Source: Candidatus Desantisiibacteriota bacterium (GTDB taxonomy: Bacteria > JACRDZ01). Taken from it: a stretch of 8,484 bases of DNA. Positions 75 through 8,212 of this stretch are shown here, one piece after another (the first letter of the stretch is position 1; each line of letters starts with the position of its first letter). Made by a program: the position numbers and the translations under genes. A model generated the notes under the pieces. That model saw nothing but the letters and a program-made list of their open reading frames with translations. It had not been told where the DNA came from and made no database searches. The stretch covers positions 1 through 8,484 of the forward strand of contig JACQWU010000114.1 of NCBI GenBank assembly GCA_016209155.1, written 5' to 3'.

Positions 75-437
75 TTAGAATTTTGTTCTAAGAATACGTA
101 CATTTTCAGCAGTTATAATTACTAAATTATTGGTTATATCATTTTCATTTAAAGAGTTATAAAATTTTTTAAATATTTCAAGAGTTCTTTTGACGTTTTG
201 CTTATAAATTTTAACAACAATAATTCCCCCGCATTTTGCTGGAGAAAATCTAAATATCCTTGTAAAATCTTTATCCATGGTTATTATAATTCTATTTTTT
301 TTACAAGCTATTTGAAATATTTTAGCATCAGATATTCCGGAAAGACCAGCATCTCTTACACTAAATATATCTAATCCTAAACTTTTCAAATAATCAATAA
401 TCGGTTCATATAAATTTTCGTCTGCTATAAATTTCAT
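75..437 (-). CDS. DUF5615 family PIN-like protein, probable toxin (RNase) of a DUF433/DUF5615 pair
   Basis: This 120-residue protein matches the small PIN-like DUF5615 (Mut7-C related) family in length and motifs. Acidic positions of a PIN-type metal site are visible: D6-E7-N8 in the opening strand (KFIADEN), D37 in GISDAKI, and D55/D57 in TMDKDF. An E111 in the C-terminal ITAENVRIL stretch is also typical of the family. By family knowledge it would act as a nuclease toxin in the cytoplasm; no nuclease target can be read from sequence. Its ATG overlaps the TGA of the upstream DUF433 gene (ATGA at 434-437), so the two are translationally coupled, which is standard for this pair. The ORF is full length with no break. 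The family assignment is secure. The toxic role is inferred from family and partner. Confidence 0.88.
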   Translation of the reverse strand: MKFIADENLYEPIIDYLKSLGLDIFSVRDAGLSGISDAKIFQIACKKNRIIITMDKDFTRIFRFSPAKCGGIIVVKIYKQNVKRTLEIFKKFYNSLNENDITNNLVIITAENVRILRTKF

Positions 438-661
438 ACAGCGATTCCTGCTTCTTCATCAACAAGAATTGAGGCATAAGCTAAACAAGCTCTTATATCT
501 TTATCTGTTATATTTGGATATGCTTTTATTATCCCATCAATATCTTCTCCACTAGCAAATAAATCAATTATAATATGAACGGGTATTCTTGTCCCTTTTA
601 TACATGCTTTTCCACTGCATATTTTGGGGTCACATATAATTCTATCAAAAATTTTTTCCAT
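434..661 (-). CDS. DUF433 family protein, probable antitoxin
   Basis: This 75-residue protein has the DUF433 signature: an opening RIICDPKICSGKACIKGTRI segment (residues 7-26) followed by a helix-turn-helix-like region (about residues 28-66) with PVHIIIDLFASGED and YPNITDKDIRACLAYA. The family usually supplies the antitoxin and DNA-binding partner of a DUF5615 nuclease encoded directly downstream, as here. The start at 661 is preceded by AAAGGA at good spacing and by a sigma-70-like promoter (724-752). The protein probably binds and neutralises the PIN-like protein and may repress its own promoter, but no clear operator palindrome was found in the leader. The reading frame is intact. Confidence 0.9.
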   Translation of the reverse strand: MEKIFDRIICDPKICSGKACIKGTRIPVHIIIDLFASGEDIDGIIKAYPNITDKDIRACLAYASILVDEEAGIAV

Positions 662-801: not shown

Positions 802-841
802 AGAGTAGCAATAGGATTGACACTAAATTATAGTTTGAAAA

Positions 842-876
842 AATATTTGATAGGATTAACAGGATTTAAACCAAAA
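842..876. repeat. 35-bp dispersed repeat, copy 1 (inverted relative to 8161-8195)
   Basis: This segment matches the reverse complement of 8161-8195 at 33 of 35 positions. The last 25 bases (852-876) are identical, beginning AGGATTAACAGGATTT. The internal unit AGGATT(A/T) is itself repeated. Both copies lie in intergenic DNA next to GCGGGAC-type hairpins, about 7.3 kb apart and in opposite orientation. Confidence 0.75.
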
Positions 877-937
877 CAGTTACTTTTATTTAACATATTT
901 AAATCCATTAAGATATTTTATTATAATATTTTTAAAA

Positions 938-1042
938 GGCAGCGGATTTGATGTCCTATGGCCGCAGATAGCAGCTTTAGTAGTTCTTGGAACCATAATT
1001 ATGACAATAAGTATTTTAAGGTTTCACAAAAGATTGGAATAA
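938..1042 (+). pseudogene. Orphan C-terminal fragment of an ABC-2 type transporter permease
   Basis: Read on the plus strand, this stretch encodes 34 residues and a TAA stop. It contains GFDVLWPQIAALVVLG, a hydrophobic segment IIMTISILRF, and the ending HKRLE. This is the usual end of ABC-2 family permeases: a last periplasmic turn with xxxVLWPQ, the final transmembrane helix, then a short RFxKRLE tail. No matching upstream coding sequence is present; the AT-rich DNA before 938 does not continue the protein and the 5' part is gone. It is therefore a remnant of an efflux permease gene whose 3' end survived rearrangement. A MacB-type tail on the opposite strand ends a few bases away (1061-1087). 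Confidence 0.7.
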
Positions 1043-1060: not shown

Positions 1061-1087
1061 TTCATATCTTAACGCTTCAATCGGATT
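1061..1087 (-). pseudogene. Short MacB-type ABC permease tail (NPIEALRYE), copy 1
   Basis: Minus-strand translation gives NPIEALRYE, the conserved C-terminus of MacB/FtsX-family permeases. It overlaps, in another frame, the last codons of the chimeric ORF that ends at 1077. The coding DNA matches the second tail at 2743-2775 at 24 of 27 positions. In this copy the expected stop after RYE is missing and the frame runs on. It is a rearrangement scar, not a gene. Confidence 0.6.
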
Positions 1088-2084
1088 TATTATTTTTTAC
1101 ACGATTTATAATTTGATCAATATTTTTATTGGTTTTAATTGTTATTATTTCTATATTTGGATTTTTTTTATTATAAACACGAAATATCTCATCTGCAAAA
1201 GCCTGTCCAATTGTAGCCACTCCATCAAAATCAAAAATTACAATTTTAAATTTATCTATTCGCACCAATAGTCTTTTAGCTTGCGAACGTGAAATTAATT
1301 TTTCATTACCATATTGTGCTAAGCGCACAGGAACAATTGTTTTAGTAAATCCATAATCTTCACCGGATGTAAATTTATCGAATACTTCTTTAGTAGTTCG
1401 TGATGTATTATTTTTTAATGTCATAAATACACCGGTACCCGTGCTAAATTTTTGAGGTTCAAGAACCCAATCATCAATTTCATTATTCTTATGAGAAAAG
1501 CATACACTTCCTGAAATTATTGCAAAATGGTCGAACATTCTGGATGAAAAAAATATTCCTTCACCGGTATGATTTTCCGGATCAGTAGTGAGCTTGCCTT
1601 TTGATAACTCTAAAACAGAGTGACGTTCATCAAGTAATGACAGCTCTCTTTGTATTTTTTTAAAAATACCTTCTCCATTATCATAAATTACAATTTCAGT
1701 TGTTATTGCTGCAAAATCTTCAACATGTATTTTATCCCCTTTGTTTCTATCAAAACGTTTTACAATGTATGCAAAGCTGTTGGCTCTCAATTTTAAGACC
1801 GCAAATCCCGGGACATTGATTCCAATTTTTTTAGCTAAAATAGTGCATGTAAACTCATTTTCCGGTAAATGATAAAATGTTTGAGATTGTGGTTTTACAA
1901 TGTATTCACCTGCTTCAGCAGCAACAACTATTTTATTATCCGGTTTATTTATCTTAACTGATATTTTTGGCTGAACACCGGATATAGAAATCTTCCCTGC
2001 CATATTTTGCGCCTCAATATTAATGTCAGAAAGGCTTAAATCTATTTTTGGTATTTCATTTATCCAAAAAGATTTTTTGCGCAT
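1077..2084 (-). CDS. Chimeric ORF: N-terminal part of a HipT/HipA-like kinase fused to the C-terminal half of a GHKL ATPase/STAS-like (DUF4325) protein
   Basis: The 335-codon ORF joins two unrelated halves. Residues about 8-126 are HipT/HipA-like: NEIPKIDLSLSDI, a Gly-rich loop SISGVQPKIS with the serines autophosphorylated in HipT kinases, EYIVKP, the NEFTCTILAKKIGI helix, YIVKRFDR and HVEDFAAI. The C-terminal kinase half with the catalytic and metal-binding aspartates is absent. From about residue 129 the protein becomes an ATP-binding/STAS-like protein: a Bergerat-type D135-N-G-E-G139 box, a second TGEGIFFSSRMFD box (173-185), then a STAS-like domain (about 247-325) with KTIVPVRLAQYG, SRSQAKRLL and TIGQAFADEIFRVY. 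The N-box half of that ATPase is missing. The junction is near 1695-1710. The ATG at 2084 is probably not the native start, since the in-frame family N-terminus lies upstream in another frame (see 2060-2140). The product is probably catalytically dead. Confidence 0.8.
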   Translation of the reverse strand: MRKKSFWINEIPKIDLSLSDINIEAQNMAGKISISGVQPKISVKINKPDNKIVVAAEAGEYIVKPQSQTFYHLPENEFTCTILAKKIGINVPGFAVLKLRANSFAYIVKRFDRNKGDKIHVEDFAAITTEIVIYDNGEGIFKKIQRELSLLDERHSVLELSKGKLTTDPENHTGEGIFFSSRMFDHFAIISGSVCFSHKNNEIDDWVLEPQKFSTGTGVFMTLKNNTSRTTKEVFDKFTSGEDYGFTKTIVPVRLAQYGNEKLISRSQAKRLLVRIDKFKIVIFDFDGVATIGQAFADEIFRVYNKKNPNIEIITIKTNKNIDQIINRVKNNKSD

Positions 2085-2140
2085 TTATTGTGATATTCTT
2101 TTTTGCCTTCGCTATGCTCACCACAAATAAGACAAATCAT
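2060..2140 (-). pseudogene. hipT: Native hipT 5' end, out of frame with the downstream ORF
   Basis: An ATG at 2140 overlaps the TAA of hipS by one base (TAATG), follows GGAGG, and opens 26 codons reading MICLICGEHSEGKKEYHNKC then AKNLFG, ending at TAA (2060-2062). This CxxC...YHxKC...LFG opening is how HipT-type kinases normally begin, and the next expected residues (INEIPKIDL) continue in the -1 frame. A single base lost at about 2060-2066 would explain it. A slippery heptamer A-AAA-AAT sits in the correct zero frame at 2072-2078, so a -1 shift there is an alternative. Either way, hipT is not translated continuously by ordinary decoding. Confidence 0.75.
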
Positions 2141-2460
2141 TATTCCTCCACAATCTTAACCGCACCAATCGTATCTTCACAAGTAGCCAGCAATAATCCA
2201 AATTTATCATTCTTATCAATTTTAAGTGAAGTAGAAACAATATCCAAATACCAGCCTTCCGGCAGTAATCCTTCAAAAAATGAAAATAATTCCGTATTTT
2301 CATATGGTTCTTTTCTTATCTGTAAGGATATTGAAATAGGTGTTTTGTTATCAAGAAAATTAGCATCATAAGTAAACCTGAATCCTTTTTCTGTTTCTTC
2401 AAGTAATCCTGCTAATTTTTCTTTAAAAAAAATATTTGCTTTTCTTTTAGTTTTTATCAT
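2140..2460 (-). CDS. hipS: HipS-like small antitoxin (HipA N-terminal subdomain 1 protein)
   Basis: This 106-residue protein corresponds to the N-subdomain 1 of HipA encoded as a separate gene. That is the diagnostic feature of three-gene HipBST modules. The family pattern is visible: a K-x-G-x-L-x-E-x-(F) opening (KLAGLLEETEKGFRFTYDANFL), the strand ISISLQIRKEPYE, the FFEGLLPEGW motif (61-70), and FGLLLATCEDTIGAVKI (87-103). In the characterised E. coli HipBST system, HipS neutralises the kinase HipT and a protruding tryptophan is important; W70 here is a candidate equivalent. It overlaps hipB by 14 nt and hipT by one base, so the operon is translationally coupled. The gene is intact although its kinase partner is broken. 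The hip assignment is from domain and gene order. Confidence 0.82.
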   Translation of the reverse strand: MIKTKRKANIFFKEKLAGLLEETEKGFRFTYDANFLDNKTPISISLQIRKEPYENTELFSFFEGLLPEGWYLDIVSTSLKIDKNDKFGLLLATCEDTIGAVKIVEE

Positions 2461-2647
2461 TTTTTACCGCCTCTAAATGATAGCCAAATAATTCCAATAC
2501 CTGATTGACTTTATCAACACGTACTGTTTTTTTGCCTTGTTCAAGATCTCTTACAAATCTTATTCCAACCCCGGATCTTTTAGCAAAATCAACCTGGTTT
2601 AATCCTGATTTTTTTCGTAATTCCTTAATTTTTAATCGTATGTCCAT
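2447..2647 (-). CDS. hipB: HipB-like helix-turn-helix repressor
   Basis: The 66-residue protein is a single XRE/Cro-type HTH: RLKIKELRKKSGLNQVDFAK (4-23) holds the first helices with the typical L-x-Q-x-x-F-A turn, RSGVGIRFVRDLEQGK (24-39) the recognition helix and following turn, and VDKVNQVLELFGYHLE (44-59) the last helices. The FVRDLEQGKKTVRVDKV segment is characteristic of HipB/y4mF-type regulators. It is the first gene of a hipB-hipS-hipT operon, starts at ATG 2647 after AAGGG at good spacing, and lies 23 nt downstream of a perfect inverted repeat (2671-2696) that overlaps a TATAAT box. It should repress its own operon. The frame is intact. Confidence 0.88.
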   Translation of the reverse strand: MDIRLKIKELRKKSGLNQVDFAKRSGVGIRFVRDLEQGKKTVRVDKVNQVLELFGYHLEAVKNDKN

Positions 2648-4410: not shown

Positions 4411-7400
4411 ATGTTCAAAAATTGTGTAATAAAAAATTTTGTTATTTTGTTGGTAAATTTATTAGTAAGAGCTAAGGGCTGGCATAATAAAAAAGATAAA
4501 ATATTATTGAGAGTTAGAGACTATACCAGAAGACGTTATATCTGGGCATTCAAATTAAGCTTTTTTTTATTTTTCATATCAATAAATTTTGTTTTTGCTG
4601 GTTCATGGCAAACAGGATTTGTGGATGCGCCTAAATATTTTAGTGATATGTCTCAAAGAAGTATTGCAATAGATAAAATTACAAATAATCCGCATATTGT
4701 TTATGGAGGATATAACCTTTATCATGCATATTATAATGGTTCTTCATGGCAATATGAAATAATAGATAATGATAGTGGCGTTGGTAAATATGCATCTATA
4801 GTGATGGATTCAAATAATAAAATCCATATCAGCTATTCTGGAAATAATTGTTTAAAATATGCGACAAATGCATCAGGAACATGGACAACTACTATTGTGG
4901 ATAGCATTAAATATGAATATGTTGGAGAATATACCTCCATAGCCGTTGATTCGAACGATAAAATTCATATTAGCTATTATGATGATTCTAACAATGATTT
5001 AAAATATGCGACAAATGAATCTGGCTTGTGGATTATTACTACTGTTGATAGTTACGGATATGTTGGACAATATACCTCCATAGCCGTTGATTCAAACGAT
5101 AAAATTCATATAAGTTATTATGATGATTCTAACAATGATTTAAAATATGCGACAAATGAATCTGGTTCATGGGTTACAACTACTGTTGACAGTTATGGAT
5201 ATACCGGACAATATAGCTCCATAGCTATAGATACAAATAATAAGATTCATATTAGCTATTATTATGATATGCCTTATGGTAATTCCAATAATCCACAAAG
5301 ATATAAACTAAAATATGCGACAAATGAATCTGGAACATGGACTATTACTACTGTGGATGGAGACGGACGTGTTGGAAAATTTAGCTCCATAGCTATAGAT
5401 ACAAATAATAAGGTTCATATTAGCTATTATTACGTAGGAAATGATTATGAAAATTATCGTGATTTTAGTTATAACGATTTAAAATATGCAACAAATAAAT
5501 CAGGTTCATGGATTACTACTACTGTGGATAGTAACATGGAAGTAGGGAGATATACCTCCATAGCCATTGATTCAAATGATAAAGTTCATATAAGTTATTA
5601 TGATGATTCTAACAAAGATTTAAAATATGTGACAAACGCGTCAGATTCGTGGGTTAGAACTACTGCTGACAGTTATGAATATGTTGGAGAATATAACTCC
5701 ATAGCCGTTGATTCAAAAGAATATAACTCCATAGCCGTTGATTCAAACGATAAAATTCATATAAGTTATTATGATGATTCTAACAAAGATTTAAAATATG
5801 CGACAAATTCATCAGGCTTGTGGATTACAACTACTGTTGACAGTTATGGATATGTTGGACAATATACCTCCATAGCCGTTGATTCAAACGATAAAATTCA
5901 TATAAGTTATTATGATGATTCTAACAATGATTTAAAATATGCGACAAACGCATCAGGTTCATGGGTTACAACTACTGTTGATAGCATTAATGGATCTGTT
6001 GGAAAATATACCTCCATAGACATTGATTCAAATGATAAAGTTCATATTAGCTACTGTGATAATACTAATAGAAATTTAAAATATGCAACAAATAAATCTG
6101 GGAGCTGGGGCACAAGTACTGTAGATAGTAATAATGGATATTATGCAGAATATACCTCAATAGTCGTAGATTTAAACAATATGGTACATATAAGCTATAA
6201 TGATTTTTTTAATGCAGATTTAATATATGCGACAAATGAATCTGGAAGCTGGATTACTACTATTGTGGATAATACTTGGATTACTGGAATTAAATCCTCA
6301 ATATCTATAGATAAAAACAATAAAATTCATATCAGTTATTGCGCTAGCGACTATTTAAAATATGCAACAAAAAATTCTGAATTATGGAGTACAGCTGATG
6401 TGGATAAAATTGGATATAATGGTTATACCTCTATAGCAATAGATTCAAATAATAGAATTTATATCAGCTATTTTGATTTGAGTAACTATAATTTAAAATA
6501 CGCAACAAAAGAAGCTAATATTCCACCAATCGCAAATGCAGGCACTGACCAAAATGTTAATGTTGGAACCAAAGTTATATTAAATGGCTCAAGCAGCAAT
6601 GACCCTAATGGAGATAATATTACATATTTATGGACGCAAATAAGCGGAGCTAATATAACATTATCAAATTCAAGTTCAGTATCCCCGACATTTTCACCAA
6701 ATTCCGCGGATATTTATATTTTTCAACTTATTGTAAATGATGGAAAAACTAATAGCTCTCCAGATACTGTTACAATAACTGTTAATACTATTCCAAACAA
6801 TTCCCCGGTAGCAAACAATGATAATATAATAACAAATGAAGATACTGCAACTATAATTAACGCGCTTTCAAATGACACAGATGCAGATGGTGATACATTA
6901 GTCATAACAGGAATTACACAAGGTACAAAAGGTGTTGCGGTAAATAATAACGATGGAGGAACTGTAACCTATACACCAATTCCTAACCTTAATGGAGCAG
7001 ACAGCTTTACATATATAATAAGCGATGGTAAAGGTGGATATGATACAGGAATTGTGCAAGTAACAATCACGGCAATAAATGATATTCCAGTTGCCAATTC
7101 CGGCGCGGATCAAACAGTGAATATCGGAATGCCGGCTACACTGAACGGTGCGAATAGCACTGATCCTGACGGAGATATCCTGACATATGCATGGACGCAG
7201 GTAAGTGGAACGAATGTTACATTATCAAATCCAAATTCCGTATCCCCAGTATTCACCTCGGATTCAGCAGGTTCTTATGAATTCCAGCTAATTGTAAATG
7301 ATGGACAAACGAATAGCGCACCAGATAAAGTGATGATTACTGTTAATAATATTTCTATAATAAATAATCCGCCAACCGCTAATGCCGGAAAAGATCAAAC

Positions 7401-7821
7401 TGTTAAAATTGGAACACAAGTTACATTAGATGGCTCAGCAAGCAACGATCCTGATAAAGATACAATTACATATTCATGGACACAAACAAGCGGACCAACA
7501 GTAACATTATCAAACTTAAATACCGTATCCTCGACATTCACTCCTGGCTCAGCTGGTACGTATGAATTTCAGCTTATTGTAAATGACGGACAAGTTAATA
7601 GCACACCTGACACAGTAACCATCGCTGTTAATAGTGGAACCGTGAATACCCCTGCTGCTTCTGCCGGAGGCGGGAAAAAGGGATGCATTATTACAAATAC
7701 AATTAAAAATAAAACCGCTGTTAGTTTTATTAATTCAATAAAAGATAAATATTTATTACAAAACGAATTTGCAAGGGTGATGCTTGAATTCTATTATAAG
7801 ATTACAACTAAATTGGAATAA
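4411..7821 (+). CDS. Large secreted repeat protein: propeller-like repeats, PKD/cadherin-like domains and degenerate CFI-box-type C-terminal tail
   Basis: The 1136-residue protein starts at an ATG with a strong AAAGGAG site. Residues 1-46 form an unusually long basic N-region containing TRRRYIW, followed by a hydrophobic core (FFLFFISINFVFA, 51-63) and a plausible cleavage after A63. Residues about 81-702 hold about 13 repeats of about 47 residues with the pattern VGxYTSIAxDSNDKIHISYY / DDSNNDLKYATN / SGSWxTTTVDS, a beta-propeller-like architecture. Two repeats (about 265-377) carry loop insertions. Then come a PKD/REJ-like domain (705-791), a cadherin-like domain with NEDT and SFTYIISDGKGG (799-888), and two more PKD-like domains (893-978, 987-1073), each with DP(D/N)GD or DPDKD, YxWTQ and FQLIVNDG. 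A GGGKKGC linker and the tail CIITNTI...DKYLLQNEFARVMLEFYYK resemble the CFI-box C-terminal sorting module. It probably acts outside the cell in adhesion or binding; the ligand is unknown. Confidence 0.85.
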   Translation: MFKNCVIKNFVILLVNLLVRAKGWHNKKDKILLRVRDYTRRRYIWAFKLSFFLFFISINFVFAGSWQTGFVDAPKYFSDMSQRSIAIDKITNNPHIVYGGYNLYHAYYNGSSWQYEIIDNDSGVGKYASIVMDSNNKIHISYSGNNCLKYATNASGTWTTTIVDSIKYEYVGEYTSIAVDSNDKIHISYYDDSNNDLKYATNESGLWIITTVDSYGYVGQYTSIAVDSNDKIHISYYDDSNNDLKYATNESGSWVTTTVDSYGYTGQYSSIAIDTNNKIHISYYYDMPYGNSNNPQRYKLKYATNESGTWTITTVDGDGRVGKFSSIAIDTNNKVHISYYYVGNDYENYRDFSYNDLKYATNKSGSWITTTVDSNMEVGRYTSIAIDSNDKVHISYYDDSNKDLKYVTNASDSWVRTTADSYEYVGEYNSIAVDSKEYNSIAVDSNDKIHISYYDDSNKDLKYATNSSGLWITTTVDSYGYVGQYTSIAVDSNDKIHISYYDDSNNDLKYATNASGSWVTTTVDSINGSVGKYTSIDIDSNDKVHISYCDNTNRNLKYATNKSGSWGTSTVDSNNGYYAEYTSIVVDLNNMVHISYNDFFNADLIYATNESGSWITTIVDNTWITGIKSSISIDKNNKIHISYCASDYLKYATKNSELWSTADVDKIGYNGYTSIAIDSNNRIYISYFDLSNYNLKYATKEANIPPIANAGTDQNVNVGTKVILNGSSSNDPNGDNITYLWTQISGANITLSNSSSVSPTFSPNSADIYIFQLIVNDGKTNSSPDTVTITVNTIPNNSPVANNDNIITNEDTATIINALSNDTDADGDTLVITGITQGTKGVAVNNNDGGTVTYTPIPNLNGADSFTYIISDGKGGYDTGIVQVTITAINDIPVANSGADQTVNIGMPATLNGANSTDPDGDILTYAWTQVSGTNVTLSNPNSVSPVFTSDSAGSYEFQLIVNDGQTNSAPDKVMITVNNISIINNPPTANAGKDQTVKIGTQVTLDGSASNDPDKDTITYSWTQTSGPTVTLSNLNTVSSTFTPGSAGTYEFQLIVNDGQVNSTPDTVTIAVNSGTVNTPAASAGGGKKGCIITNTIKNKTAVSFINSIKDKYLLQNEFARVMLEFYYKITTKLE
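4651..6516 (+). repeat. About 13 tandem coding repeats of about 141 bp
   Basis: The repeats encode the propeller-like units of the surface protein. Most are diverged, but some DNA stretches are nearly or fully identical. For example, 5056-5156 equals 5848-5948 over 101 bases, an offset of 792 nt (264 codons). A 30-bp tandem duplication (5689-5718 and 5719-5748, 29/30 identical) adds ten residues, EYNSIAVDSK then EYNSIAVDSN, inside one repeat. Confidence 0.85.
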
Positions 7822-8056: not shown

Positions 8057-8129
8057 ATGCACCCCTGATTCATAAAATTAATATTTTTTTATTCATTAAA
8101 ACTAACTTACAATTATAATTATATCATAA

Positions 8130-8167
8130 TTTATAAATTTACATTAAATAATAAACTACATTTTGGT
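8130..8167. repeat. Imperfect direct repeat, copy 2, upstream of the MNT remnant
   Basis: TTTATAAATTTACATTAAA (8130-8148) matches 7871-7889 at 18 of 19 bases, followed by a similar ACATTTTGGT ending that runs into the 35-bp repeat at 8161. Confidence 0.35.
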
Positions 8168-8195
8168 TTAAATCCTGTTAATCCTGTCAGATATT
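8161..8195. repeat. 35-bp dispersed repeat, copy 2 (inverted relative to 842-876)
   Basis: The reverse complement matches 842-876 at 33 of 35 bases, with 25 identical. It contains the doubled unit AATCCTGTTAATCCTGTCAG. It sits 18 nt before a REP-like hairpin, as copy 1 also sits near one. Confidence 0.75.
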
Positions 8196-8212
8196 CTTTG
8201 ATTAAAAATTAT

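Follow-up and report, generated by a model that had tools for sequence, protein, structure and literature searches.

The window, which is the whole 8,484-nucleotide stretch analysed here (C327:1-8484, from an AT-rich bacterial metagenome assembly of 3.08 Mb in 352 contigs, 78.8% complete), probably carries a decayed hipBST operon in which hipT is a pseudogene with a deletion scar, broken once by a frame change close to its 5' end and a second time by an in-frame junction to part of an unrelated gene. On the minus strand hipB and hipS are followed by a single open reading frame of 335 residues, in which the N-lobe of a HipT kinase is continued by the C-terminal part of a winged-helix/HATPase/DUF4325 protein (table 1). 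This fusion ORF most likely represents a genomic scar of an ordinary kind rather than a new protein family.

Table 1. Features of the hipBST remnant and of the fusion ORF in the window.
Feature	Position	Strand	Basis or detail
hipB, HTH antitoxin/regulator, 66 aa, intact	2447..2647	minus	TIGR03070 above cut-off
hipS, N-subdomain-1-like antitoxin, 106 aa, intact	2140..2460	minus	Couple_hipA 2-98/99 (Pfam)
native hipT 5' end, 26 codons, premature stop after frame change	2060..2140	minus	stop 2062-2060
A6 run adjoining the hipT -1 frame change	2073..2078	minus	A_AAA_AAT in native frame
fusion ORF	1077..2084	minus	ATG at 2084, stop 1079-1077; 335 aa
hipT N-lobe remnant, fusion ORF residues 1-124	1713..2084	minus	HipA_C 1-88/213
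junction, hipT remnant/ATPase remnant	1698..1715	minus	alignments with both parents
C-terminal part of winged-helix/HATPase/DUF4325 protein	1077..1703	minus	DUF4325 E 1.7e-12

The antitoxin side of the operon agrees with the first-pass annotation, which had described HipB and HipS as intact upstream: the former scores above the family cut-off and the latter covers nearly the whole of its profile. Both genes lie directly upstream of the hipT remnant, in the order hipB-hipS-hipT of the hipBST operon of E. coli O127:H6, whose HipT belongs to clade III of Gerdes et al. 2021 (PMC8262856). As in that system, HipS carries an LLPEGW segment, which appears to match the Glu63 and Trp65 residues of E. 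coli HipS (PMC10627512). HipB and HipS are presumably still made, without a toxin to hold.

The hipT remnant is likewise recognizable, being 63% identical to the intact HipT of the nearest relative examined (L004) and retaining the SISGVQPK loop (the Gly-rich loop with the S-Psi-S motif, as defined in PMC10627512), KPQ, KRFDR, with the RFDR found also in E. coli O127:H6, and HVEDFA. Its match to HipA_C (E 4.9e-20, residues 32-129) is confined to the first 88 of 213 profile positions. Unlike HipT of known hipBST operons, it has a frame change at the 5' end and has lost, past the junction, both the catalytic loop (GNGDAHLKN in relatives) and the metal-binding Asp region (PAYD), where E. coli HipT has D210 and D233 (PMC10627512). 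Among the 26 columns invariant in relatives four are changed, three of them conservatively and one from D to A, a number that falls within the range of 0-6 found for intact relatives.

The frame change is a second lesion, which the first-pass annotation overlooked. The native hipT ATG at 2140 overlaps the hipS stop codon and is preceded by GGAGG, and the native frame reads MICLICGEHSEGKKEYHNKCAKNLFG before its stop, so that no single open frame runs on from the native start. That this short peptide, out of frame with the fusion ORF, is the true beginning of the gene is indicated by its match to the N-termini of two intact HipT proteins (L004, 52%, E 1.6e-4; L008, 50%, E 4e-5). The fusion ORF lies in the -1 frame relative to it. 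The interval 1077-2140 previously given for the fused gene thus needs correcting, since 2140 is the native hipT start whereas the fusion ORF begins only at 2084. With a stop and a frame change at the 5' end of hipT, the native start cannot reach the junction.

The position of the junction was obtained by aligning the fusion ORF with seven HipT and 13 HATPase-DUF4325 proteins. It tracks the former as far as HVEDFA, diverges after it and joins the latter just before their D-x-G-x-G box, placing the switch at residues ~124-128, in keeping with the earlier estimate of about residue 127. The alignments with the two families also bear out the description of a kinase deprived of its catalytic aspartates and an ATPase deprived of its N-box, and, together with the truncated HipA_C match and the missing winged helix, the view that two unrelated genes were joined, each lacking its other half. 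Solved structures match the HipT half only. PADLOC and NCBIfam gave no match for the fusion ORF, and PHROGs gave weak partial matches to entries of unknown function.

The second half, which is 57% identical to L026, resembles winged-helix + HATPase_c + DUF4325 (STAS-like, PF14213) proteins in retaining the D-x-G-x-G box (G1), GEGIFFSS, SRSQAKRL, IGQAFADEIFRV and the DUF4325 domain itself (residues 268-322; 47.3 bits against a cut-off of 23). It differs from them in having neither the N-box (E-x-x-N-N-x-I-D/E-H-S) nor the N-terminal winged helix, in place of which stands the HipT N-lobe. None of the 36 columns invariant in the 13 relatives is changed, which, as far as the alignment goes, would fit a recent joining and also continued selection, two alternatives that are not separable because a close relative is absent. 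The AlphaFold model of the fusion ORF (mean pLDDT 66.8, pTM 0.41) falls below a pLDDT of 50 at residues 116-127 and does not pack the two modules with confidence. Such low predicted confidence at this point would be expected where two incomplete domains meet end to end; given that the input alignment was shallow (21 rows, with two families mixed), the low value at the junction is weak evidence.

Comparison with relatives bears directly on whether this architecture is a scar or a real, conserved fusion family. In the nearest relative examined, G001 of the same phylum, hipB, hipS and hipT are intact on contig 60 (L004) and 77%, 72% and 63% identical to the genes of the window, respectively; the ORF downstream of hipT differs from that of the window, and the winged-helix/HATPase/DUF4325 gene is found apart, on contig 85. 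As the first-pass annotation had proposed, the same fusion was sought in related genomes: neither 98 genomes, nor the four genomes by which the phylum is sampled (that of the window included), nor a species-genome collection yielded a fused homologue, so that a conserved architecture, which would speak against a scar, is unseen. Viral contigs and phages gave no match, and none of 132 plasmid records covered 80% of the fusion ORF in one place, the 20 listed of these 132 matching the HipT half. Of nearly thirty relatives from the genomes and the species-genome collection, each aligns with a single half and none with both, and both parent genes are seen elsewhere as separate genes only. A new fusion family, for which the single open frame speaks and nothing more, is therefore extremely unlikely. 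In a different lineage (G046 contig 28; L014, L022) a hipT match is split over two frames with an internal stop, so that decay of hipT is not unusual.

With the architecture read as a scar, the junction would have exchanged the catalytic C-lobe of HipT for the 3' part of a wHTH-HATPase-DUF4325 gene, and the simplest route would be a deletion between two neighbouring genes of the same orientation, of at least roughly 0.9 kb to judge by how much of each gene is missing. The length of the open frame is accounted for by the in-frame joining of two recently functional coding sequences, an outcome expected in one case out of three by chance. The earlier proposal of a deletion scar is thus sustained as regards a scar over a conserved architecture; the deletion itself is something that we infer, since a relative with both parent genes side by side was not found among the genomes searched.

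The chief rival is a misjoin in an assembly that is 79% complete: the contig would wrongly connect two loci at 1715-1698, with a homopolymer error of the consensus accounting for the frame change. The fragmentation of the assembly lends it some plausibility, as does the location of both lesions in AT-rich DNA, one of them adjoining an A6 run, and the missing halves of the two genes may simply be unassembled. However, neither the lost halves nor another copy of either parent gene turned up when the genome was searched with full-length HipT and HATPase-DUF4325 proteins, which matched this locus only; the junction DNA occurs once in the assembly, whereas a repeat-driven misjoin would imply a further copy; and the G+C content is alike on the two sides (32% and 30%). 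An artefact of this kind is therefore considered unlikely. The absence of the lost halves elsewhere and the single copy of the junction DNA favour a real deletion, though short of proof in an incomplete assembly.

A chimeric protein had also been suggested as something the locus could still yield. The frame is indeed open for 335 codons; the suggestion is weakened by the stop that the native hipT start meets before the junction, so that a fusion product would require either internal initiation at the ATG at 2084 or slippage into the -1 frame at the A6 run. This run reads A_AAA_AAT in the native frame, and slippage at this putative site would link the native hipT and fusion frames. A working chimera made in either way, combining HipT N-lobe, HATPase part and DUF4325, could bind HipS or HipB and free or redirect them, and the ATPase part does retain all its invariant residues. 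Against it stand the loss of the kinase catalytic residues and, on the ATPase side, of N-box and winged helix, its absence from every relative searched, the low AlphaFold confidence at the junction and overall, and the sequence upstream of the ATG at 2084, in which a clear Shine-Dalgarno was not found. Such a protein is thus improbable, and it is highly improbable that the kinase N-lobe and part ATPase/STAS-like chimera is translated by these means and serves as a decoy for HipS/HipB.

Read as a decayed operon, the window shows the ordinary outcome of a toxin-antitoxin system from which the toxin has been lost and the antitoxin genes remain. It also calls for caution, since even an extended reading frame carrying two Pfam domains can turn out to be a scar: an automatic pipeline would log a 335-residue HipA_C/DUF4325 protein to which probably no family corresponds.

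The surroundings of the cassette contain several other features. Stretches reading INPIEALRYE (1022-1092, minus) and KLNPVEALRYE (2740-2786, minus) flank it, one on each side, and are presumably like the 3' ends of MacB/FtsX-type permease genes, while GSGFDVLWPQIAALVVLGTIIMTISILRFHKRLE at 935-1042 (plus) is one that we take to resemble an ABC-2-type permease gene at its 3' end; Pfam gave no match for these short gene ends. Near the hipBST remnant, a DUF433/DUF5615 gene pair at 75-661 (minus), identified through Pfam, resembles a VapBC-like toxin-antitoxin pair, its DUF5615 member being PIN-like. A dispersed repeat, 77-88% alike, occurs at 821-927 (plus) and 8112-8199 (minus), with further copies on contigs C206 and C20. 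Finally, positions 4411-7821 (plus) encode a protein of 1136 residues, in which a long run of SIAVDSNDKIHISYYDDSNNDLKYATN-type repeats is followed by PKD and cadherin-like domains.
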